A stretch of 64,000 nt of DNA from Lachnospiraceae bacterium (GTDB taxonomy: Bacteria > Bacillota > Clostridia > Lachnospirales > Lachnospiraceae). Below, piece by piece: positions 2,451 through 22,207 of the stretch; the first letter of the stretch is position 1, and each line of letters begins with the position of its first letter. The translations under genes were made by a program, and so were the position numbers. The notes beneath the pieces are model-generated. The model did not search any database, was not told the origin of the DNA, and was given only the letters and a program-made list of their open reading frames with translations. Location of the stretch: assembly GCA_017445585.1 (NCBI GenBank), contig JAFSTX010000042.1:1-64000 (forward strand), written 5' to 3'.

Positions 2451-4772
2451 TCAGCGCTGCTCTTCGTTGAAGTCGAGCGCGATCTTCTTTGACGTCAGGA
2501 ACGTTACGAAGTCGGCCTTGCCCATAGGTTTGGCGTAATAGAAGCCCTGTACGACCTCGCAGCCAAGCTTCTTAAGATACATGAGCTGCTCGCGGGTCTC
2601 GACGCCCTCCTGGGTGATCTTCATTCCCAGATCCTTGCCAAGCCTGATGATGCTTGTCAGGACCTTCTCGTCGCGATCAGCATAACTGCCCGATTTGATA
2701 AAGAAACGATCCAGCTTTATCTCATCCATCTGCAGTTCCTTAAGGATGCTGTAAGAAGAATAGCCCGATCCGAAATCATCGATGGAGCATTTGAAACCGT
2801 TCGCGTGAAGTCTGTTGATGATATCACGCAGCATATCATAGTTTTCATATGCCACGCTCTCCGTAAACTCCATCATGATATATCCGTTAGGAATATTATA
2901 TTTGCGTTTGATGCCCACATAGTAATCGACAAAATCAGGTTCCGCGGCAGTCAGGCGGGACACATTTACCGATACGGGATAGACGCGCTCTCTGGCAGCC
3001 AGTGAATCCGAGATGTATTTACATACCTCCTCATACACATAGCGGTCGAGCTTTGTAATGAAGCCGTTAGACTCGAACAGCGGCATGAAAACACCGGGCA
3101 GGGCGTACTGATCCTTGTTCTCATCATACCAGCGCACCAGAGCCTCGCTGCCGTCCGGACGGTTGTTTGCTATATTATACTTCGGCTGATAGAATACCTT
3201 GAATTCGTTGCCGGCCAGAGCGGCTTCCTGATGGACCTCTATATATCCGATAGTTCTCTTGCGCTCATTGAAGTCCTCGTTATAACGATGGAAGGTTCCG
3301 ATATCATCCGTAGCAGCTGATGCCTCCGAAGCATCCATGGCAAAATCGACCATCTCGTTGATATTGCCTGTAAAGCCTCGGCTTACCTCATAGATACCTC
3401 CAAAGAGCTCCAGATGATAACCATCCGGCATGTGCTCTCTGTATTTTTCTGCCTGTGTATACAGCTGTGACAGGCGCTGGCGGAGAACGGTGTCATCCTT
3501 ATAATGGACAGTCATTCCGAAATCACCGTTCGTCAGATAACCGAAGGACTCATACGGATCCATGGTTATCCTGATCAGATCGCGGATATGAATCAAAATG
3601 TCAGTCATGGCATCATAGCCGAGCTGATCGACAAAATACATATAATGCTTTATGCAGATAACTATTACGGCGTATTTGGAACCTGAGTACTGTCTGAGCA
3701 GCTCTTCGCTTTCTTTTTCATACTTCACGCGGCTGTTGCAGCCTATGCGTTCATCCGTACCGCTGAGTTCGGCAATCTTGCGGCGGCTGCGCGCATAGCT
3801 TATGATCGATGAGATCGCTACCACAAAAAGCAGTATCAGAAGGACGGCGAGCATGCCGAGAACCACACTAATAGTGCTGTAGCCGCCGCTGTAGATCTCA
3901 TTTGCCTGATAAAGTGCAACCACCGAAAAAGATGCATCGCTGCTTCCCATACTCGAAACGGCAAGTATAAACTCAGTCCCCTCTATGGTCGTCGGGAAAG
4001 CAGCCGCCGAACCGGTACGGATCACTTCCCTCGCCTGATCAAGCAGGGCATCATTTTTCAGCTTTTCGCTAAGCGCCTCATAGATGTTATTATGAAGGCC
4101 AAACTCATTCTCTCCGTCAGCGTTCGGCTTCTGGTAGAGGATATTCAGCATCTCACCGTCGTTTGAGCAGATAACGGTAAGCGTCGAATCCTGCAGATAC
4201 TCCTGGTTAAGCTTCTCGCGGTCTACGTTTACGATGACCTCGGGCGAGAAGAAGAAAATGATCGAATCCGCGTATTCAAAGTCATTGATCGGAACGATAA
4301 AGCCTACGACGGCGAGCGATATATCGCGATCCGTAACGACGCCGGTGCAGATAGTCTCGCGATCGGCGATATGGTTTCTGACGGCAGGGTCCTCGAGCGT
4401 CATATCAAAGACCTCGCCGTACCGGGTGTAATCGACACCGTCCTTATAGTAACGGCAGAAATAGAGCTCGCTGAAACGATCGTCACGGAAGAGGCCGTTT
4501 ATCACGGCGAGGAAGCCGTCACGATCGGCGGGATTGGAGGCTTTGACGGCCTCGGCCATAGTCTCGGACAAAGACATATAGTAATTGACGCGGTCTCTGA
4601 GAGCACCGACGGAATCCGTGGTGTAGAGCTGACCGCGAACACTGGCCTGATCGTCGAGATTAGTCGTATACTCGCTCATGATCATTCCTCCGACAAGCAG
4701 CAGCATTACGCAGAGGAAAGCCGTAAATATGAGCACCAGAGTACGGCCGTGATTTTTTAAGCGCGAGATCAT
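2451..4772 (-). CDS. Membrane-bound cyclic-di-GMP phosphodiesterase (degenerate GGDEF + intact EAL)
   Basis: A 773-residue protein. Residues 11-33 and about 298-325 are transmembrane helices enclosing an extracytoplasmic sensor domain. Residues about 335-495 resemble a GGDEF domain without the GGDEF signature, so cyclase activity is unlikely. Residues about 510-760 are an EAL domain that keeps the catalytic set: E543 (EALVRW), N603 (SVNVS), E635 (EFTES), D665-D666 (IDDFGSGYSS), K686 (IKLDRF), E722 (EGVET) and Q742 (QGF). It should hydrolyse c-di-GMP to pGpG at the membrane. The start overlaps the upstream SipW-type peptidase stop by four bases (ATGA), making it the last gene of the AAA+/SipW operon. 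Two c-di-GMP riboswitches lie nearby, so it probably provides negative feedback (inference). Confidence 0.92.
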   Translation of the reverse strand: MISRLKNHGRTLVLIFTAFLCVMLLLVGGMIMSEYTTNLDDQASVRGQLYTTDSVGALRDRVNYYMSLSETMAEAVKASNPADRDGFLAVINGLFRDDRFSELYFCRYYKDGVDYTRYGEVFDMTLEDPAVRNHIADRETICTGVVTDRDISLAVVGFIVPINDFEYADSIIFFFSPEVIVNVDREKLNQEYLQDSTLTVICSNDGEMLNILYQKPNADGENEFGLHNNIYEALSEKLKNDALLDQAREVIRTGSAAAFPTTIEGTEFILAVSSMGSSDASFSVVALYQANEIYSGGYSTISVVLGMLAVLLILLFVVAISSIISYARSRRKIAELSGTDERIGCNSRVKYEKESEELLRQYSGSKYAVIVICIKHYMYFVDQLGYDAMTDILIHIRDLIRITMDPYESFGYLTNGDFGMTVHYKDDTVLRQRLSQLYTQAEKYREHMPDGYHLELFGGIYEVSRGFTGNINEMVDFAMDASEASAATDDIGTFHRYNEDFNERKRTIGYIEVHQEAALAGNEFKVFYQPKYNIANNRPDGSEALVRWYDENKDQYALPGVFMPLFESNGFITKLDRYVYEEVCKYISDSLAARERVYPVSVNVSRLTAAEPDFVDYYVGIKRKYNIPNGYIMMEFTESVAYENYDMLRDIINRLHANGFKCSIDDFGSGYSSYSILKELQMDEIKLDRFFIKSGSYADRDEKVLTSIIRLGKDLGMKITQEGVETREQLMYLKKLGCEVVQGFYYAKPMGKADFVTFLTSKKIALDFNEEQR

Positions 4773-5587
4773 TTATCGTTCTCTCCTGTAGTATTATCGG
4801 ATGCCGGCTCATCTCCGGCGTCTTCTGCGGATGGCACCTCTTCGCTCGTGCCTTCACTGACTGTTTCCGCCTGAGGGGCCGTCCCGTCGGATGCCTCATC
4901 GGCAGCGGGAGCGGATATCTCCTTTGCTGAAGGCTCAGCAGGTGCGCCGTTCAGGCCGGGGATGACAAGATTCATGGACTTCATCTTTTCAAGCTCCTGA
5001 CGGACCATCTCTTCGATGAACTCCTCGTGGCTCCTGGCGGCTTCCTCCTCCTGCTTCTTCAGCGATTTCTTCAGATCGGGAAGATACAGCAGCATCATTA
5101 CAGCCATCACCACGACTATGATCATCATCAGACCCATCTTTGTGGAAAGAAGTCTGGTAAATCTTGTAACTATCGGAAGGTTGCGCACGTAGCGTCCCAC
5201 GACATCCTCGGGGAATACGTGATACGCGTCCTCCACCTGATTGTGATCGCCCTTTGTGACAAACTCCTCGTGATCGCCGATTATCTCAGCTATCCTGTGT
5301 GTATTTCTCTGGCCCTCGATCAGCGGATCGCGCGAGACGAAGACTATGATATCGCCCACGGCAAGCTCGGCGGGATCGACCTTTTCCACGAGGATATTGC
5401 TGCGCTCGGGGATCACCGGCTCCATACTTTCGGTAAGCACCCACATGATGCTGTGATTTCCGAAAAAGGGTACGTCGCCCCGCGAATTTGTCACAAGTAC
5501 AAAAACCGTCATGCCCACCAGGACCAGCATGACCAGGTATCCAAGGACATCCTTTATGATTTTCAGTACTTTAAAAAGTTTTTTCAT
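4769..5587 (-). CDS. SipW-type (ER-type) signal peptidase I, copy 1
   Basis: A 272-residue membrane serine protease of family S26B. The catalytic serine is S54 (LTESMEP), and the base is H97 (NTHRI) rather than the lysine of normal bacterial signal peptidases; TKGDHN follows with D114. This Ser-His layout is the hallmark of SipW and of archaeal/ER signal peptidases, which in Bacillus subtilis process TasA and TapA. There is an N-terminal helix at residues 13-33 and a second near 150-172, then a long charged, low-complexity cytosolic tail of about 95 residues that is not typical of SipW. It overlaps the genes on both sides by four bases, so the operon is tightly coupled. The WFxN-type proteins encoded nearby are the probable substrates. 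Confidence 0.9.
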   Translation of the reverse strand: MKKLFKVLKIIKDVLGYLVMLVLVGMTVFVLVTNSRGDVPFFGNHSIMWVLTESMEPVIPERSNILVEKVDPAELAVGDIIVFVSRDPLIEGQRNTHRIAEIIGDHEEFVTKGDHNQVEDAYHVFPEDVVGRYVRNLPIVTRFTRLLSTKMGLMMIIVVVMAVMMLLYLPDLKKSLKKQEEEAARSHEEFIEEMVRQELEKMKSMNLVIPGLNGAPAEPSAKEISAPAADEASDGTAPQAETVSEGTSEEVPSAEDAGDEPASDNTTGENDK

Positions 5588-7155
5588 TTATTCCTGGGAT
5601 GGCGTCCTTTGTTGTGCTGGATACCGCGCTTCTTCATACGGGCCTGACGGTTCTTTTCGGAAGAAGGTCTTCTCTTCTTTTCGCCGCTGTCCGCGGGCTT
5701 TCTGCCGTTCATGGCGGCATTATACTCGGCCAGGGTCATGCTGCCGGGCGTATCTGCAGCTTCATCCGCTGTATCGGCGCCGTTTTCGGCATCGCTCTTC
5801 TCCGTCTCCTGCGAGGCGCCGGTCATATTATCGCCGGTCTCATCCGTCACGGCTCCGGTCTCATCCGTCACGGCTCCGGTCTCATCTTCCGCCTCGCCGG
5901 CAGTTTCCTCTCCGGGCGCGGACTCGGGCTCGACAAACTCCGGTACAGGCTCAGGCTCGGGAATATCCCCGTAGGCAAGCGACTCCTCCGGATTTGCGGA
6001 AAGCATGATCTCCGAAGCGCGCAGAGAAACGGCCAGCGCCTCGGCCATCACGCCGGGTGCGTAAGCAGCGGAGCTCTGCTCCTGCTCTACGTCTCTGATG
6101 ATATCAAATTCATCGGCCGAAAGCTTTTTAAGGCGGTCGATGATCCTGGGCATGAAGGCCTCGTCGGTAAGCTGGGTATCCAGCATCCCGTCATCCTCCA
6201 TGTCGTTGCGTATATTGTAGCGGAAATTCAGATACTGGACCGCCGCCGCCCTGTAGAGATCGCGCAGATACGCCTCGGGCACGTCCTCCAGATTCTCCTG
6301 GATCAGCATACTGTAGCCTGCGCTCTCATATCCCTCGATAAACTGCCAGAGGGTCAGACATCTGCGCATGTTCGGATTCTTCATGATCGCGTTCGTATGC
6401 ATGATGGGCGGACGCACAAAACTCTGGCCCATGTTCCTCGCGAACTCCGAGCCGGCGTAGGTCTGCACTATATCGTATATCTTTACCACGCGCTTCCACA
6501 GATCGGTGGTCTTTGAGTAGTTCTTTTCGACGAGATCGGAATCGTCCGTAGGCTCCGCGATCTCCAGAGTAAAATGCATCTTGCCCTTGAGGTCTCCGTG
6601 TGAAAAAGACTGCTCCATGACAAGCGAAGTCTCGCGGGTATCCTGGCCCTCGTTCTTTGCCACATCATAGCGCATGGCGACAAAGGTCAGCAGGCGGTTG
6701 ATGAGCGTATTCAAAAACTTATTTTCGTAGGTCTGGAGAGTCTCTTCACGAAAGACGTTGAGCAGCTTGGAAGGAGTGACCGTGTCGCCCTCGATCTTTG
6801 AGATGAGATCAGTATGCTGCGCCAGATGCTTCACGGAGGCAGGCGAGATATTCTTGGACATCTCGATGGGAAGGACTTCTTCTCTCTCCATGATGTATTT
6901 TGACGGATTGCGGAGCGCGGCGTCCAGATAAGGCAGAGCATCCTCGATAGCGTTTACCCATGTCTCATCTATGGCGCGCAGCATATAGCGCTTTTTCAGC
7001 TCGACGCTGGCCTGCCCGCTCTGGAGCATGGCCATGACGGAGCTGAAAATATCGCTCTCCTCGATAAGTATATCCATGAGAGTTCCGTTTTCCTGATGGA
7101 AGGCACGGAGCTCTCTGGCTGTTGTATTCTGATTGGCTGTGTTGGTTTCAGGCAT
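5584..7155 (-). CDS. Partner of the McrB-like ATPase; DUF2357/McrC-context-like protein without visible nuclease
   Basis: A 523-residue, probably cytosolic protein with no signal peptide. The first about 370 residues are helical and include TYENKFLNTLINRLLTFVAMR, which resembles the conserved ENRF-type segment of the DUF2357/McrC-associated proteins that accompany McrB-like ATPases. I see no PD-(D/E)xK nuclease motif. After about residue 385 come acidic, Glu/Thr-rich low-complexity sequence, including a 21-bp DNA repeat (near 5840-5895) encoding the repeated DETGAVT, and a strongly basic C-terminus (KKRRPSSEKNRQARMKKRG). It lies 80 bp downstream of the AAA+ gene and overlaps the SipW gene by four bases. 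Its function is unknown; a structural adaptor for the AAA+ protein is the best guess. Confidence 0.6.
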   Translation of the reverse strand: MPETNTANQNTTARELRAFHQENGTLMDILIEESDIFSSVMAMLQSGQASVELKKRYMLRAIDETWVNAIEDALPYLDAALRNPSKYIMEREEVLPIEMSKNISPASVKHLAQHTDLISKIEGDTVTPSKLLNVFREETLQTYENKFLNTLINRLLTFVAMRYDVAKNEGQDTRETSLVMEQSFSHGDLKGKMHFTLEIAEPTDDSDLVEKNYSKTTDLWKRVVKIYDIVQTYAGSEFARNMGQSFVRPPIMHTNAIMKNPNMRRCLTLWQFIEGYESAGYSMLIQENLEDVPEAYLRDLYRAAAVQYLNFRYNIRNDMEDDGMLDTQLTDEAFMPRIIDRLKKLSADEFDIIRDVEQEQSSAAYAPGVMAEALAVSLRASEIMLSANPEESLAYGDIPEPEPVPEFVEPESAPGEETAGEAEDETGAVTDETGAVTDETGDNMTGASQETEKSDAENGADTADEAADTPGSMTLAEYNAAMNGRKPADSGEKKRRPSSEKNRQARMKKRGIQHNKGRHPRNK

Positions 7156-7235: not shown

Positions 7236-8870
7236 TTAGAATGACATCTTCTGCAGACGCTGCAGGTAAGCCACGCATTCCTTCATGGAATCCTTGCCAA
7301 AGAGGTTTCCGAGATAAAGGATCAGACCGCGGATCTCGTCACGGATGAGAGAAAGGTTAAGTGCCTCGAATTTGCGGAACACCTTTGTAGCGAGGATATA
7401 GTCGATGGCTTCGAGCTCAGTGCCTCCGCAGGCAACGTAGACCGGTACGAAGATCTTGAGCTGATTCATGATACGGTTACCGAAAGCCACCCTGAATTTC
7501 TCGATGACGTAGAGATCGAGATTGCTGATCTTGTCAAGTATCTCCTGGCTGACAGGATTCTTTTCGACAGCTTCCTTGTACATCTCCTCTACATGCGAGT
7601 AGCTGATATGCTTGGGAGCCGTATCGGGAGCCTCAAAAGGCATACCCTTGCTGTCCAGATTGATGACGAGCGCACGGTCGTAGACCTTGTCGGATACCGC
7701 GAAGGTGGAATCATCGTTATTTGCCGTACCGATGTACCAGACATTCTGAGGGATCTGGAGCTTGCCGTCGTCCAGGTGGGCGGGGTCGGTAGGCCAGGAT
7801 GAAGGCACGATCTCTATGCGCCACTCATTCGGGTCGGGCATCTCGAGGACTGAAAGCATCTCGGCGAAGTAATACTCCACACGCGCGATGTTCATCTCGT
7901 CGAGGATGATGATATTGATATCGTCATTGTACGAAGACTCATAGATGCGCTTGAGCACCTCTGTCTCGTTGAATTTCTTTGTGAATTCGTTAAAGAAGCC
8001 GAACAGCTCGGAGCGGTCACGCCACGACGGCTGTACGGAGGCGATGGTCGCGTCGTTCATAAAATACTTGCCCATGATATAAGGCAGCGAAGTCTTACCT
8101 GTACCGGAAATACCCTGCAGGAGGATCAGCTTGGTGGAAGCAAGTCCGGCAAACATAAGACGGATAATCTTTTTCTCATAGAACAGGCGGCCTCTGGAAC
8201 AGGCGAAATTCCTGATATCGTCGCAGAGCTGCTCGAGGTTCATGGAGTTGTCGTATTCGGGAGGCATGTAGTACGAATACTTTTCATCCACAGCCGACAG
8301 ACGGAAGAAACGCTTGGACTCCGAAGGATTCACGTCCGCGCCGCTTCCGGAGGAGGCTGCAGCTGCGACGGCTGCGCCGGCAGCCGGCGCAGCAGGGACC
8401 ATGCCGCCTACACCGGCTGTCAGTCCAACCTGACCCTCGGCTCCCGCCGCAGTCTGCTCTTCGAATATAGTGCGCAGGTCGTCATAGCTCATGCCTGTAG
8501 GCGCGATCTTAAGTGCAAGCAGACGCTCCTTTTCCGCTGTGAGCTGAATGACGTCGCGGTGAAGATCCGCAACCTCTTCGAGCAGGTCTTCATTACCTAC
8601 GATAGACTTGCGGAAACGGACATATTTACGTATCAAAAGGACTATCAAAAAGATGATGCCGCCTACGATGGCATACGTGAGCAGGATGGAAAGCGTGGCC
8701 AGTATCCATGCAAGGACGTTAAAACCGTCCTTGTAGCGATTCAGCTGCTCTATATACATCGGAATGTTAAAAAGCTGAGCAAAGCCTGTGAACAGACCTG
8801 ATATACCGTTCCACAGAGAGCTCAGTATTGTCGTAAAGAAAGCAAAAAACCAGTTCAGAAAAGCATCCAT
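7236..8870 (-). CDS. Membrane-anchored McrB-like AAA+ ATPase
   Basis: A 544-residue protein. The N-terminus is hydrophobic (a membrane-associated stretch at residues 5-35 and a clear transmembrane helix at about 52-81), followed by a coiled-coil-like segment (about 88-120) and an Ala/Gly-rich linker (145-180). The AAA+ core has Walker A GISGTGKT (253-260), Walker B IIILDEMNIA (D324, E325), sensor-1 GTANNDDST (381-389) and a likely arginine finger near R399. The LDEMNIA and GTANNDD signatures are those of the McrB/MoxR-like branch. McrB itself is a soluble GTPase of restriction systems; membrane anchoring and neighbouring SipW peptidases instead suggest a chaperone or assembly motor (inference). 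The ATG has a GGAAGGA ribosome binding site and lies only about 40 bases after a terminator. Confidence 0.85.
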   Translation of the reverse strand: MDAFLNWFFAFFTTILSSLWNGISGLFTGFAQLFNIPMYIEQLNRYKDGFNVLAWILATLSILLTYAIVGGIIFLIVLLIRKYVRFRKSIVGNEDLLEEVADLHRDVIQLTAEKERLLALKIAPTGMSYDDLRTIFEEQTAAGAEGQVGLTAGVGGMVPAAPAAGAAVAAAASSGSGADVNPSESKRFFRLSAVDEKYSYYMPPEYDNSMNLEQLCDDIRNFACSRGRLFYEKKIIRLMFAGLASTKLILLQGISGTGKTSLPYIMGKYFMNDATIASVQPSWRDRSELFGFFNEFTKKFNETEVLKRIYESSYNDDINIIILDEMNIARVEYYFAEMLSVLEMPDPNEWRIEIVPSSWPTDPAHLDDGKLQIPQNVWYIGTANNDDSTFAVSDKVYDRALVINLDSKGMPFEAPDTAPKHISYSHVEEMYKEAVEKNPVSQEILDKISNLDLYVIEKFRVAFGNRIMNQLKIFVPVYVACGGTELEAIDYILATKVFRKFEALNLSLIRDEIRGLILYLGNLFGKDSMKECVAYLQRLQKMSF

Positions 8871-8952: not shown

Positions 8953-9837
8953 CTATTCGGCCTGCACCTTTTCAGCGGCTTCCTCCGCCTCGGCCACAGT
9001 CTCCTTGACCTCGGCAGCTGCATCTTCCGCAGCCTTTTCAGCCTCCTGCACAGCAGCGGCTGCATCGTCCGCAGCTTTTTCCGCCTCCGCAGAAGCATCT
9101 TTCGCGGCTGCCTCTGCCTGTGCGGCTGCATTTGCCTGCTGATTCTTGATGTACTCCTCGATTGCGCGCTGACGTATCAGCTCCTCATCGGCCTGGGTGA
9201 TCTGCTTTTTGCCCTCGTTCTTTATAGCGAGGAACTTGCGGATGAATACGATCAGTTCAAACAGGAAGAAAAGCACCAGCGGGATAACTATCACTACCAG
9301 GAAGCCTGTAGGAGTCTGAAGGAAGGAAAGGAACTTGCCCAGCGAAGGGATCTTCGTGCCGTTCCATTTGCATACGACCGCGCCAGGAAGCACAGTGTCG
9401 GTATCCTCGATAGGATTGTTATCACCTTTTGTGACATAACCGGTGACCGCACCGGAAGCATCTTTCTCGACCTCTATGATCCTGTGGGTGTTCAGATCTC
9501 TGTATCCGTCGCCGTTGAGGTCATCGACAGCAAAGGTAATAACATCCTCCACATTAAGCTGCATGGCCTCCGTATCGTCGACCTTCTCGCCGATGATGAT
9601 GTCGCCCGCCTTAAAGGTAGGGAACATGGAATCGGTCTGCACATTCAGGATCGTTGTGGCTCCGATGGAAGGGACGTTGTAGCTGCTGGAGGTCTGGGCA
9701 AAAGCCAGGACCGTGATCAGCGCGCAAAACGCGACAAATATCCAAAGGATGACGTTACCTATGATGCCGAGAACTTTCCTCGCACCGGATTTCTGTTTTT
9801 TATCTGCGCCTTCCAGCAATTCTTTTTCTTCTGACAT
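8953..9837 (-). CDS. SipW-type (ER-type) signal peptidase I, copy 2
   Basis: A 294-residue S26B-type signal peptidase. Catalytic S70 (QTDSMFP) and H118 (LNTHRI) with TKGDNN (D139) give the Ser-His arrangement of SipW. Transmembrane helices are at about residues 21-47 and 178-198. The last about 70 residues form an Ala/Glu/Lys-rich, probably coiled-coil cytosolic tail (repeated AEKAAEDAAAEV-like segments), unusual for a signal peptidase and possibly a docking site for the AAA+ complex. It is transcribed from its own promoter (9930-9957) and closed by a terminator. The presence of two SipW paralogs in about 5 kb suggests different substrates or a heteromeric complex. Confidence 0.9.
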   Translation of the reverse strand: MSEEKELLEGADKKQKSGARKVLGIIGNVILWIFVAFCALITVLAFAQTSSSYNVPSIGATTILNVQTDSMFPTFKAGDIIIGEKVDDTEAMQLNVEDVITFAVDDLNGDGYRDLNTHRIIEVEKDASGAVTGYVTKGDNNPIEDTDTVLPGAVVCKWNGTKIPSLGKFLSFLQTPTGFLVVIVIPLVLFFLFELIVFIRKFLAIKNEGKKQITQADEELIRQRAIEEYIKNQQANAAAQAEAAAKDASAEAEKAADDAAAAVQEAEKAAEDAAAEVKETVAEAEEAAEKVQAE

Positions 9838-16983: not shown

Positions 16984-17022
16984 CGAAAACACAAAAGACA
17001 GCCAGTAATGCAACTGGCTGCC
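16984..17022 (-). terminator. Riboswitch-controlled terminator upstream of the 275-residue protein
   Basis: Minus-strand CAGCCAG (in 17014-17020) pairs with CTGGCTG (16999-17005) across an 8-base loop, followed by TCTTTTGTGTTTT. The 5' arm is part of the conserved 3' strand of the c-di-GMP-I aptamer, so aptamer folding and termination exclude each other. Confidence 0.8.
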
Positions 17023-17093
17023 TTAAATATCAGGGCCCTATAGCTTTGCGTCACCGCCTTTCGACGGCTTTGCCTTTTAATACTTCTTAAACT
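17008..17093 (-). promoter_or_regulatory. Cyclic-di-GMP-I (GEMM-I) riboswitch, copy 2
   Basis: The transcript reads GGCAAAGCCGTCGAAAGGCGG, then TGACGCAAAGCTATAGGGCCC and later GGCAGCCAGTTGCAT. This is the GEMM-I pattern: a GCAAA..C start, a P2 hairpin capped by GAAA, the GACGCAAAGC linker, a P3 arm with the tetraloop receptor and a GGCAGCCAG 3' strand. Its 3' strand overlaps the terminator arm, so ligand binding is predicted to allow read-through (ON switch) into the 275-residue and giant surface-protein genes. The ON direction is inferred; the class assignment rests on recognised conserved bases. Confidence 0.9.
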
Positions 17094-17323: not shown

Positions 17324-17372
17324 AAAAGTAGGATAAGTATATCAAATAAGCTGTTCTTATCCTACTTTTTTT
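17324..17372. repeat. TAGGATAA hairpin repeat, copy R1
   Basis: A 14-bp inverted repeat (AAAAGTAGGATAAG / CTTATCCTACTTTT) around an 18-base loop. It is one of four related elements in 17324-19051. It is flanked by A and T runs, so it could act as a bidirectional terminator. The 12-base string AATTCACTCAAA occurs just upstream, as it does near copy R4. The rest of 17129-17640 holds no gene that I can see. Confidence 0.8.
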
Positions 17373-17499: not shown

Positions 17500-17548
17500 A
17501 AAAAAATAGGATAAACATCTTAAAAAACTGATGACTTATCCTATTTTT
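17500..17548. repeat. TAGGATAA hairpin repeat, copy R2
   Basis: AAAATAGGATAA (within 17500-17514) pairs with TTATCCTATTTT (within 17536-17548) around an A-rich loop of about 21 bases. Same design as R1, R3 and R4. It lies 93 bp beyond the 3' end of the nuclease-like gene. Confidence 0.8.
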
Positions 17549-18825: not shown

Positions 18826-18874
18826 AAAAATAGGATAAATTCTAAAAAAAATGCCATACTTATCCTATTTTTTT
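18826..18874. repeat. TAGGATAA hairpin repeat, copy R3
   Basis: AAAAATAGGATAA (18826-18838) pairs with TTATCCTATTTTT (18860-18872) around a 21-base loop containing an eight-A run. Same spacing and core as R1, R2 and R4. Confidence 0.8.
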
Positions 18875-19003: not shown

Positions 19004-19051
19004 AAAAAGTAGGATAAGATTTTAAAAAAATAGTGAGTTATCCTACTTTTT
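19004..19051. repeat. TAGGATAA hairpin repeat, copy R4
   Basis: AAAAAGTAGGATAA (19004-19017) pairs with TTATCCTACTTTTT (19038-19051) around an A-rich 20-base loop. The flank upstream (AATTCACTCAAATCTTTGATC) resembles the flank of R2 and shares AATTCACTCAAA with R1, so the repeated unit may be longer than the hairpin. Confidence 0.8.
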
Positions 19052-19356: not shown

Positions 19357-20265
19357 TCAGGCCTTGGTGTCAAGTGAGAACTTAATGTCAACCTTGATAT
19401 CATCAAGCTGAGCAGCAAGAGCGTTATCGGTCATGCAGTTGGCATCTTCGCCCTCATACCAGATGTAGACATCAACCTTAGCTCCGTTAGCGTCGGAAGC
19501 AGGAAGCTTCGCAAGATCGGTAGGAGTAACAGTAGTTCCTGCGATCGCATTAGTAGCGGTAGAGGAAGCATTTACATAATAGGTAGCGGTGTAACCGGTA
19601 ACAGGTGCATAGATGTAGAACACGGAGTTCATCTTGATACCAACTCTGAGTGACTTGTTGAGGTTGGTAGAACCGGTACTAGCAGCAGGGGTAGCAGTAG
19701 CTGTTACTTCTTTAATGCTTACATACTGGTCGCCAGAGGCCTCGTTCTTAAGAGTGATCTCCTGGCCGGAGGACTTAAGATAGTACTCATAGTGGACATA
19801 GTAGCCGGCAGGCGCGTCAGCAGCGGTACCCATGGTCTCTCTCTTGGCTTCCGAGCCGGCGGTAGCGCTCTTGCTCATAGCGGTGATAGCAGTCAGACCA
19901 GAAAGTGTCTCATAGTTGCCGATGATGTCGCCGGACTTGGATCCGGGCGTTGCAGCAGCTGCGCTGTTGGACTTCGTGCTGGCAGCATGATACCATGTTG
20001 ATCCGTCAGCAGTGGATGCCGGATAGAGAAGAGAGGCATCGGTAGAAGCAGTCTGCTTGGCAGTAGCTTCGCTGTCCCAGGTGGTGTCGTTAGCTGCCTG
20101 AACCTCGTTGATCAGAAGACCCTGCTCAGCAACGGCTCTGACTTCCATGCTGGTAGCAGAGACTTCTTTGTTCATCGAGAACCATGCGAAAGTTGCGGAG
20201 CTCATGGCTGTAGCAGAAACAAGAAGCATAGCCAGAGCGGGGATGAGTTTCTTGAACTTCTTCAT
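19357..20265 (-). CDS. TasA/camelysin-like secreted protein with SipW-dependent signal peptide
   Basis: A 302-residue protein. The N-terminus MKKFKKLIPALAMLLVSATA, then MSSATFAWFSMNKEVSATSMEV, is a textbook SipW-dependent signal peptide: basic start, hydrophobic core, then AWFS and a beta-strand region. The mature part is Ala/Thr/Ser-rich. Near the C-terminus VYIWYEGEDANCMTDN then DIKVDIKFSLDTKA parallels WLEGPDPDCVDKIIGGQ then FKIDM of the neighbouring 260-residue protein, so the two are paralogs. TasA-family proteins form extracellular matrix fibres; the same role is inferred here. A strong ribosome binding site (AAAGGAG) and a strong terminator suggest high expression. It is the third gene behind the first c-di-GMP riboswitch. 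Confidence 0.85.
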   Translation of the reverse strand: MKKFKKLIPALAMLLVSATAMSSATFAWFSMNKEVSATSMEVRAVAEQGLLINEVQAANDTTWDSEATAKQTASTDASLLYPASTADGSTWYHAASTKSNSAAAATPGSKSGDIIGNYETLSGLTAITAMSKSATAGSEAKRETMGTAADAPAGYYVHYEYYLKSSGQEITLKNEASGDQYVSIKEVTATATPAASTGSTNLNKSLRVGIKMNSVFYIYAPVTGYTATYYVNASSTATNAIAGTTVTPTDLAKLPASDANGAKVDVYIWYEGEDANCMTDNALAAQLDDIKVDIKFSLDTKA

Positions 20266-20332: not shown

Positions 20333-21115
20333 TCAAACAATACTAAACTTTCTGACCGGCAGGACCGCTTTCGACTCGGCTGCGTTCATGCCGTCGTTGC
20401 CGTCTTCGGAACCTATGACCGTCATCGCCATGTCGATCTTGAACTGTCCTCCGATGATCTTGTCGACGCAGTCGGGGTCGGGACCCTCGAGCCAGATGAC
20501 CACTGTGTACTTCGTCGTATCTCCCGGAGCGAAGTTCTCGATGGTCTTCCGTACGATCGTCGTCTCGGACTGGAAGGCCGTGGTGCCGGGTTCCGGTCCT
20601 TCTATACCGTCCGTCCTCGGGTAGGCATAGTCAACGTACTCGCCGTTGGTGTATATCCTCACTCTGACCGCCTTTTCTATCTCGTAGGTCATGTTCGCGA
20701 TATAGCACTCGTAGTTGTATTTGATTGTCTTGGTGCCCTGGTTCCTGCAGTAGAAGGTGTAGGCTACGTAATTATCTCCGTTATGCTCTCCGTCTACGTT
20801 GTCCACCCACGCGGGGATCGTGGAACCGTCTATATTCGTTACTTCCTTTGCTATCTCCGCGTTCAGCCTCGAGGTGTAGCTGTTAAAATTCTGTGACGCT
20901 GAAAGCGTGAGCGCATATTCCAGATTATCAAACTTGTTTACCGATACCGTGAAGGCTCCGAACTTCATATAGAGCACTGTGATAACATATCCGATGATCA
21001 GTATCAGTATCGCTATTCCTATGATTATCGGAATCAGCTTCATCCAGATGCGGTAGCGTTTGACCTCCTCCGCAGTTCGTCGGATGCCGACCCCTACGAC
21101 TCTTGATCTAGCCAT
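20333..21115 (-). CDS. Camelysin/TasA-like membrane-anchored protein
   Basis: A 260-residue protein with a cytosolic basic start, one transmembrane helix at about residues 27-50 and an extracellular domain. Its C-terminal WLEGPDPDCVDKIIGGQFK, followed by IDMAMTV, matches the C-terminal pattern of the TasA-like protein downstream, which marks it as a paralog. It lacks the AWFS motif after the helix, so it may stay anchored and serve as a base or minor subunit, as TapA does for TasA (analogy only). Its ATG overlaps the upstream stop by one base (TAATG), so it is coupled to the degenerate EAL-like gene. A small hairpin lies between it and the next gene and could raise the level of the downstream product. 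Confidence 0.75.
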   Translation of the reverse strand: MARSRVVGVGIRRTAEEVKRYRIWMKLIPIIIGIAILILIIGYVITVLYMKFGAFTVSVNKFDNLEYALTLSASQNFNSYTSRLNAEIAKEVTNIDGSTIPAWVDNVDGEHNGDNYVAYTFYCRNQGTKTIKYNYECYIANMTYEIEKAVRVRIYTNGEYVDYAYPRTDGIEGPEPGTTAFQSETTIVRKTIENFAPGDTTKYTVVIWLEGPDPDCVDKIIGGQFKIDMAMTVIGSEDGNDGMNAAESKAVLPVRKFSIV

Positions 21116-22068
21116 TATTCCTCCTCGGCATGCTGGGCTGCGGCTTCTTCAAGTCTCATCCTGAGACTGCCGTGCTTTACATTTCCCTGATAGCCGGAAG
21201 AAGGGATATAAGCCCTGCAATCGCATTTCGTAAGTGCGTTTATCTGATTGTCATTGTACACACCGTCAGCAATCACATCCGCCGAAAAGCTCTTGAGGAA
21301 ATTCACCAGAGCCGCGACGTTCGCGCCCTTAGACCGGCTGTCACTCATGGAGGTGATCAACGGATCCAGAAGGAAGAAGTCCACCGGGATCTCATAGAGC
21401 GCCGCGGGTGAGATATCTGCAGCTCCGATGCCGGTGACCATGGTGCGGACTTTCAGGAGCTTCATATCGAGGATCGATTTTCTGATCTTCGCTCTGGACT
21501 CCGGATCCGTCGACCTGATGAGTCCTGCAGGAAATTCGAGGCAGATGGTCTCTGGTGCGAGGCCCTGCTCCTGAGCAAGACCTTTAACGATGTCGTAGAG
21601 GTCATCTCTCAGGCACATCTCCCAGGGGCATCTCGCTGTCACATACTGGATCTTCCTGCCTGCCAGCTCCATCTGGCGTGCGGCCCGCAGCGCGTGAGTG
21701 ATGTTCCACTTTGCAAGGCCGATGCCCTCCTCTGTGGGATCGGTCTCGGTGCTGTAGATCTCCGGACCGGTCACTCCGGTGCTGACGCTGTTCAAATATG
21801 TAAAGGTGCGGTATGCAATGGGTTCCGGCGGATAAGTGCTGTTGATCTGAGCAAATCTCATCTCTATGGGATCGACGCCGGCCTCGATAGTTGCGTTAAC
21901 CAGTCTGGCACGATCCAACTCAGGCCCTTCGAGTACCGGCAGATCCTCCTGCTCGGTCCCGGCATCCTGACCGGAAATCTCCTGCGTCACTTCTGTCTGC
22001 TTTGCATTTTCCTCTGTGTCTTCGGTAGTCAGTACTTCGCGTCCTTCAATTTCTGTATTCTCGGACAT
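21115..22068 (-). CDS. Degenerate EAL-like domain protein, probably catalytically inactive
   Basis: A 317-residue cytosolic protein; I use the ATG at 22068 (MSENTE), which has an AAAGGAG site, rather than the GTG at 22095. Residues 1-50 are acidic and disordered. Residues about 65-300 follow the EAL fold: ICLEFPAGLI stands where active enzymes have LEITES, TGIGAADIS where they have DDFGTGYSS, IPVDFFLLDPLI for LPVDxLKID, and VIADGVYNDNQINAL for IAEGVETxxQ. The EAL glutamate, the DD pair and the metal-binding glutamates are missing, so phosphodiesterase activity is unlikely. It could be a c-di-GMP or protein-binding receptor for the export system. It is the first gene behind its own c-di-GMP riboswitch. 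Confidence 0.8.
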   Translation of the reverse strand: MSENTEIEGREVLTTEDTEENAKQTEVTQEISGQDAGTEQEDLPVLEGPELDRARLVNATIEAGVDPIEMRFAQINSTYPPEPIAYRTFTYLNSVSTGVTGPEIYSTETDPTEEGIGLAKWNITHALRAARQMELAGRKIQYVTARCPWEMCLRDDLYDIVKGLAQEQGLAPETICLEFPAGLIRSTDPESRAKIRKSILDMKLLKVRTMVTGIGAADISPAALYEIPVDFFLLDPLITSMSDSRSKGANVAALVNFLKSFSADVIADGVYNDNQINALTKCDCRAYIPSSGYQGNVKHGSLRMRLEEAAAQHAEEE

Positions 22069-22097: not shown

Positions 22098-22140
22098 AAA
22101 AAAATGCAACCTACGCAGTCATAGTGACTTGCAGATTGCA
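22098..22140 (-). terminator. Riboswitch-controlled terminator before the degenerate EAL-like gene
   Basis: On the minus strand TGCAA..TGC.AGTCA pairs with TGACT.GC..TTGCA around a CTA loop, followed by a seven-T run. The 5' arm starts within the last bases of the c-di-GMP-I aptamer, so the two structures compete. It ends about 30 bases before the start codon. Confidence 0.8.
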
Positions 22141-22207
22141 ACTGGCTGCCCTTTCGGGTCCTATAGCTTTGCGTCGCCGCCTTTCGACGGTTTTGCTCTC
22201 GTCTGAT
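22136..22207 (-). promoter_or_regulatory. Cyclic-di-GMP-I (GEMM-I) riboswitch, copy 1
   Basis: The transcript contains GCAAAACCGTCGAAAGGCGG, then CGACGCAAAGCTATAGGACCC, a GAAA loop and GGCAGCCAGTTGCAA. These are the conserved elements of the GEMM-I aptamer (GAAA-capped P2, GACGCAAAGC joining segment, P3 and the conserved 3' strand). The core is nearly identical to the second copy at 17008-17093, which shows that both operons respond to the same signal. Overlap with the terminator predicts ON regulation by c-di-GMP (inference). Confidence 0.92.

Follow-up and report, generated by a model that had tools for sequence, protein, structure and literature searches.

The window analysed here is a stretch of 64,000 nt (positions 1-64,000 of contig JAFSTX010000042.1) from Lachnospiraceae bacterium, a gut member of the Clostridia (assembly GCA_017445585.1). 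A gene on its minus strand, starting with an ATG at 22068 and ending at 21115, encodes a degenerate EAL protein. Its stop codon overlaps by 1 nt (TAATG) with the start of the gene for a membrane protein, which was named TM260 and is encoded directly after what we call the slot gene; its gene is conserved and anchors the cluster. The genes are predicted to form two operons (Table 1). Aptamer A is followed by the genes for the degenerate EAL protein, TM260 and a SipW-type protein. The second operon lies behind riboswitch B and contains, in this order, the genes for a camelysin-like protein, a surface protein of 1808 aa, a SipW-like peptidase, a GTPase, a DUF2357 protein, a second SipW-like peptidase and an intact EAL protein. 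A Pfam search of the 1808-aa protein returned no family.

Table 1 Features of the cluster in the window
Feature	Position	Strand	Description and evidence
Aptamer A, c-di-GMP-I riboswitch	22134..22207	-	Upstream of degenerate EAL gene; Rfam RF01051, 49.1 bits, E=1.4e-6
Terminator-like intrinsic hairpin + T7	22098..22140	-	Fold -18.3 kcal/mol; 5' arm and 3' end of aptamer A share 7 nt; predicted to be switched ON by ligand
Degenerate stand-alone EAL protein, 317 aa	21115..22068	-	Acidic disordered N-tail (~residues 1-51) and EAL-fold core; Pfam EAL, structure match, motif table, dN/dS
TM260	20333..21115	-	Short cytoplasmic tail with RRTAEEVKR; one long helix (TM) at the N-terminus; beta-sandwich predicted on the extracytoplasmic side
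SipW-type signal-peptide protein	19357..20265	-	ATFAWFS motif; by sequence a predicted TasA/camelysin-like surface subunit; homologues in many related loci
Aptamer B, c-di-GMP-I-GGC riboswitch	17005..17083	-	Upstream of second operon; Rfam RF03167, 61.9 bits, E=3.3e-12
Terminator-like hairpin + T4	16993..17022	-	GGCAGCCAGU/ACUGGCUGUC; 5' arm inside 3' strand of aptamer B
Camelysin-like secreted/membrane protein, 275 aa	16081..16908	-	By sequence, LGWFANN; homologue in L112
Secreted surface protein, 1808 aa	10527..15953	-	Homologous stretches in L044 and L112
SipW-like signal peptidase	8953..9837	-	NCBIfam NF046067 E=7e-28, TIGR02228 E=2.6e-22
McrB-like AAA+ GTPase	7236..8870	-	Predicted N-terminal TM/coiled coil; weak NCBIfam McrB match; NNDD conserved, fits NxD clade
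McrC N-terminal-like DUF2357 protein	5584..7155	-	Pfam DUF2357 E=8.6e-8; nuclease family not found
Second SipW-like signal peptidase	4769..5587	-	NCBIfam TIGR02228 E=9e-25
Cluster-terminal protein, intact EAL and weak GGDEF	2451..4772	-	Predicted c-di-GMP phosphodiesterase; Pfam EAL E=4.4e-57; intact motifs

Between the two operons lies an ORF (17641 to about 18480) that matches no Pfam family and is absent from the cluster in the relatives examined. The same region carries four AGGATAA...TTATCCT hairpin repeats (17330-17363, 17508-17542, 18832-18866, 19011-19044), none being expected by chance.

Both riboswitches had been missed by the first-pass annotation. They exceeded the Rfam gathering cut-offs of 35 bits (aptamer A) and 59 bits (aptamer B), and a genome search revealed three c-di-GMP-I riboswitches in the source genome, two of which belong to the cluster. 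Aptamer A is kept at the same place in five related loci (L043, L044, L098, L100, L101), and a c-di-GMP-I riboswitch also precedes the divergent TM260 gene of L142. At all eight sites examined a terminator-like hairpin starts at, no more than 4 nt from, or inside the closing strand of the aptamer, which suggests that the riboswitches act as ON switches. Because P1-helix pairing, as judged by duplex energy, was at most sites no better than in shuffled sequences, this direction is deduced solely from the position of the terminator arm. Part of the c-di-GMP control of the cluster may reside in the riboswitch. The third c-di-GMP-I riboswitch of the genome (G000:C58:2134-2218, L005) lies before the gene of a secreted protein in which InlB-like repeats were recognized by eye.

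Relation of the gene set to CoCoPALM and to TasA/SipW proteins

As far as can be judged from sequence, the gene set fits CoCoPALM, which was named in a single paragraph, with no function given, by Bell et al. (2024, eLife, PMC11090510). Common to both are an McrB-like GTPase of the NxD type, a DUF2357 McrC homologue and signal peptidases. The NNDD motif of the GTPase is invariant in 16 homologues and corresponds to the NxD type as defined in that paper. In CoCoPALM the GTPase is fused to an FtsB-like TM/coiled-coil part; a putative counterpart is seen in the sequence of the window GTPase, where a charged helical stretch comes after a hydrophobic segment at the N-terminus. The DUF2357 gene adjoins the McrB gene in most loci, and the signal peptidases are represented by the two SipW-like enzymes. 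To that description the present analysis adds the riboswitches, TM260 and the slot protein. The paper mentions no c-di-GMP, PilZ or EAL domains (PMC11090510), and our literature search found no paper linking CoCoPALM to any of them. Two other assignments were rejected: a restriction or defence system, as no nuclease family was found although McrB and DUF2357 are present, and plasmid-borne copies, as coverage of the GTPase reached 80% in none of the plasmid records and the matches were restricted to distant AAA proteins.

A sequence search of solved structures with TM260 gave nothing useful. Its structural model (pLDDT 79) matched the TasA fibre structure 8aur weakly (Z 6.5), and by Foldseek 8aur appeared at rank 4 with E=1.0e-3, likewise a weak match among other beta-sandwiches. 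Together with the SipW-type signals and the SipW peptidases, this match suggests a role of the cluster in fibre formation.

Fold, motifs and selection of the degenerate EAL protein

The first-pass annotation had claimed a recognizable EAL fold in which the catalytic residues are replaced, and both statements are confirmed by the present analysis. Residues 116-286 match Pfam EAL with E=2.6e-13, and an EAL search of the source genome scored the protein at 50.8 bits (cut-off 31.3). An AlphaFold model built with 12 relatives reached a mean pLDDT of 75.8, with about 90 in the core and disorder in residues ~1-51. The core of the model (residues 56-317) has the TIM-barrel-like EAL fold, and its comparison with solved EAL structures yielded Z scores of 22-29, namely 28.9 for 5m3c, 28.1 for 3n3t (a c-di-GMP complex), 23-25 for FimX and 22 for LapD; the matched FimX and LapD structures include c-di-GMP complexes.

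The TGIGAADIS and IADGVYN stretches named in the annotation are present, and an alignment to intact EALs from the source genome and related genomes showed that nearly all catalytic residues are replaced: Glu of EAL by Arg, Arg of ExLxR by Tyr, Asn of NVS by Arg, DD by TG, Lys of KxD by Leu, both Glu of EGVE by Asp and Tyr, and QG by PS. The first Glu of ExTE (E178) is the sole canonical residue kept. An active phosphodiesterase with unusual residues, for which the preserved fold could be cited, was rejected as highly improbable, since the EAL Glu, the NVS Asn, both DD aspartates, the KxD Lys and the EGVE Glu are R, R, TG, L and D in this protein.

A decaying pseudogene or passenger might explain that the N-tail evolves fast and that the gene is a hotspot of divergence. 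Nevertheless, dN/dS of the core is 0.066 in comparison with the congener L043, which indicates purifying selection, and the position of the slot gene as well as its translational coupling are conserved across families. This explanation is hardly credible and was rejected.

Identity to L043 drops to 65-90% in the segment 21294-22340, which spans the riboswitch and the larger part of the degenerate EAL gene; in the flanks on both sides, at 20.1-21.3 kb and at 22.3-26.2 kb, it is mostly 95-100%. The segment resembles an exchanged cassette; dS to L043 is 0.65 within it and 0.11 for TM260.

LapD and FimX contact their ligand through the Arg of ExLxR and the acid of EGVE. It had been supposed that the inactive EAL domain could be a c-di-GMP receptor of this type, which would bind the nucleotide without metal and signal to TM260 or SipW. 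The loss of catalysis and the match to the FimX and LapD complexes agree with such a receptor, as does the acid still present in the EGVE motif (D268, replaced by Glu in L108), along with the retained ExTE Glu. Six GGDEF matches in the source genome also favour it. On the other hand, the ExLxR Arg is Tyr throughout the clade of the window protein and nearly all residues of the pocket differ there. LapD/FimX-type receptors combine GGDEF and EAL domains with a sensor context, whereas the window protein is a stand-alone EAL with a disordered N-tail. Direct binding of c-di-GMP by the window protein is possible but doubtful, as its residues disfavour it. At the positions of the old catalytic motifs new residues are conserved family-wide (YMPxR, GFGGxNSP, VDYVxLS, IADGV), which would be expected if the dead EAL bound another nucleotide or metabolite such as pGpG or cGAMP. 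This is unlikely; the riboswitches are called c-di-GMP-I and not cGAMP-type by Rfam.

The slot before TM260 across Clostridia

A contig scan with the EAL protein gave two relatives only, and further relatives were therefore gathered with TM260. Most loci were supplied by a search of Clostridia with TM260, while the window, L043 and L044 came via the EAL protein; in a wider phylum sample TM260 had a match in the window genome only. TM260 homologues were found in 39 loci, L144 being left out of the counts as it ends at a contig edge. A c-di-GMP-type protein occupies the slot immediately before TM260 in 32 of the 39 loci, or in 29 of 36 if the window, L043 and L044 are omitted. The slot holds a degenerate EAL in 13 loci (window, L043, L044, L098-L101, L108-L112, L128), a fusion of HD-GYP and degenerate EAL in four (L102, L134, L140, L141), an HD-GYP in nine (L116, L117, L131-L133, L136-L139), a PilZ in five (L104, L113, L114, L129, L130) and an EAL protein in one (L142).

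Seven slots are empty (L103, L105-L107, L143, L115, L135); four of these belong to one genus, two are near the HD-GYP clade and L103 is near a contig end. The single genus (f80; L105-L107, L143) has clusters without any c-di-GMP-type slot protein, and in L105, L106 and L107 a coiled-coil-like protein of about 510-540 aa is encoded nearby.

RxxxR and DxSxxG are conserved in each of the five slot PilZ proteins, and in four genomes (G270, G788, G1038, G1087) the slot PilZ is the only one found genome-wide. HD and HHExxDGxGYP are kept in all nine stand-alone slot HD-GYPs, with N for D in L117. As the slot of relatives is held by PilZ or HD-GYP proteins with intact c-di-GMP motifs, the slot is linked to c-di-GMP, which also favours a receptor function of the EAL protein. 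In the tree of TM260 ectodomains the slot type tracks the clade, and degenerate EAL, HD-GYP and PilZ slots need one change each. In a tree with 25 other EALs, the degenerate EALs of the slot group together in a separate clade (support 90/72).

The cytoplasmic tail of TM260 also varies with the slot. It contains RRTAxEVKR with most EALs, is long and carries VRIxxLE and VSMYxPxR with PilZ, and shows a RFDxLNRFRHW-like stretch with HD-GYP. Such a match would fit docking of the slot protein on the tail. Shared descent could yield the same pattern, because each clade passes on its tail type together with its slot type.

Domain counts were taken from genome searches, and most genomes are draft assemblies. 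Of the genomes whose slot holds an EAL, HD-GYP or PilZ protein, 26 were examined, and each gave at least five GGDEF matches. In contrast, the four genomes with a fusion in the slot (G157, G482, G665, G220) have 0, 0, 0 and 1, the assemblies of G665 and G482 being only 85-87% complete (Fisher p=3.6e-5 for fusion versus other slots, uncorrected for kinship). Each of these four has one EAL match, which fits the slot fusion being the last remaining EAL. In three of the slot fusions HQ stands in place of HD, and HME in place of HHE. Thus, the slot protein can be retained where c-di-GMP is probably not made. Because four genomes with no or one GGDEF retain the fusion, c-di-GMP is not the universal ligand of the slot, and this points to a slot role that does not always need c-di-GMP.

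These genomes bear on a further explanation, according to which the riboswitch alone reads c-di-GMP and the EAL scaffold serves in docking or assembly and has no nucleotide ligand. Such a purely structural adaptor would account for the doubly degenerate fusions kept as the only EAL, and the most altered pockets occur in the riboswitch-bearing EAL clades. However, the intact motifs of PilZ and HD-GYP in the slot of relatives suggest that sensing of a ligand is useful there. We regard a purely structural role as a serious possibility, if short of probable. As to the proposal of the first-pass annotation that an inactive EAL receptor gates a surface system, the tie between a dead EAL and a Gram-positive surface-protein system has held up. 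The connection of the whole system to c-di-GMP, through riboswitches and the HD-GYP and PilZ proteins in the slot of relatives, is much stronger than was first read. LapD/FimX-like binding by the protein itself has lost ground, given the Tyr and Asp at the contact sites and the slot kept in genomes devoid of GGDEF.

Proposed function and comparison with known systems

Taken together, the window protein is probably a dead, EAL-derived cytoplasmic subunit with a regulatory or adaptor role in a CoCoPALM surface-fibre machine. In the proposed mechanism, c-di-GMP would bind the riboswitches and allow transcription to pass. The dead EAL protein would be made in translational coupling with TM260 and dock on its cytoplasmic tail. 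Docking would license TM260, the SipW peptidase and the membrane-anchored McrB/DUF2357 motor, by which the TasA/camelysin-like subunits would be processed and assembled. Finally, the active EAL enzyme encoded at the end of the cluster would bring c-di-GMP back down. This intact EAL groups with those at the ends of the L098 and L100 clusters in a clade of their own (100/98), and all three loci bear riboswitches; negative feedback by the enzyme is possible and even likely.

In view of the riboswitch and of the c-di-GMP-type slot proteins in relatives, it is probably the biofilm signal c-di-GMP that controls the machine. More generally, and with not quite even confidence, we propose that CoCoPALM of Clostridia is a c-di-GMP-gated fibre assembler, in which an exchangeable cytoplasmic signalling subunit from the slot docks on the matching tail of a membrane-anchored TasA-like protein. 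In some lineages the riboswitch would replace or double the sensing, and the dead enzyme would be structural where c-di-GMP synthesis was lost. CoCoPALM is tied to c-di-GMP by two separate routes, an RNA switch and a protein slot, and also to SipW-type surface proteins; these ties make its function directly testable. Unrelated c-di-GMP domains have apparently been exchanged inside one homologous machine. The genomes G157, G482, G665 and G220, in which a degenerate c-di-GMP enzyme is the last EAL next to at most one GGDEF, allow one to ask what dead enzymes do without their ligand.

What is new is that CoCoPALM is linked to c-di-GMP and that signalling domains have apparently been swapped at a single slot; the individual parts are of known kinds. 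With the TasA/SipW and camelysin fibres of Bacillus the cluster shares the SipW peptidase, SipW-type signal peptides and predicted beta-sandwich subunits. To our knowledge, those fibres lack an McrB/DUF2357 motor, a riboswitch and any subunit of the EAL, PilZ or HD-GYP kind. LapD of Pseudomonas fluorescens also links an inactive EAL to the control of surface proteins; it is a membrane GGDEF-EAL receptor with demonstrated c-di-GMP binding (PMC3032545), whereas the present EAL is soluble, stands alone, lacks the ExLxR Arg and belongs to a Gram-positive export cluster. In the FimX/PilZ/PilB system of Xanthomonas (PMC8389850) a degenerate EAL acts via protein contacts on an ATPase-driven surface-fibre machine, as is predicted here. 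That machine is a type IV pilus and PilZ partners the EAL, while in the SipW/TasA-like system PilZ replaces the EAL. DvhD of Desulfovibrio (PMC13090378), an HD-GYP protein in the role of LapD, follows the same logic with another c-di-GMP domain; that swap is between analogous systems, and the slot swap described here is within one homologous machine family. Control of surface proteins by c-di-GMP riboswitches is shared with adhesins of C. difficile (PMC6200980) and B. thuringiensis (PMC4933901). Unlike in these cases, what the riboswitches of the present cluster appear to control is an entire export machine that includes a dead EAL subunit.
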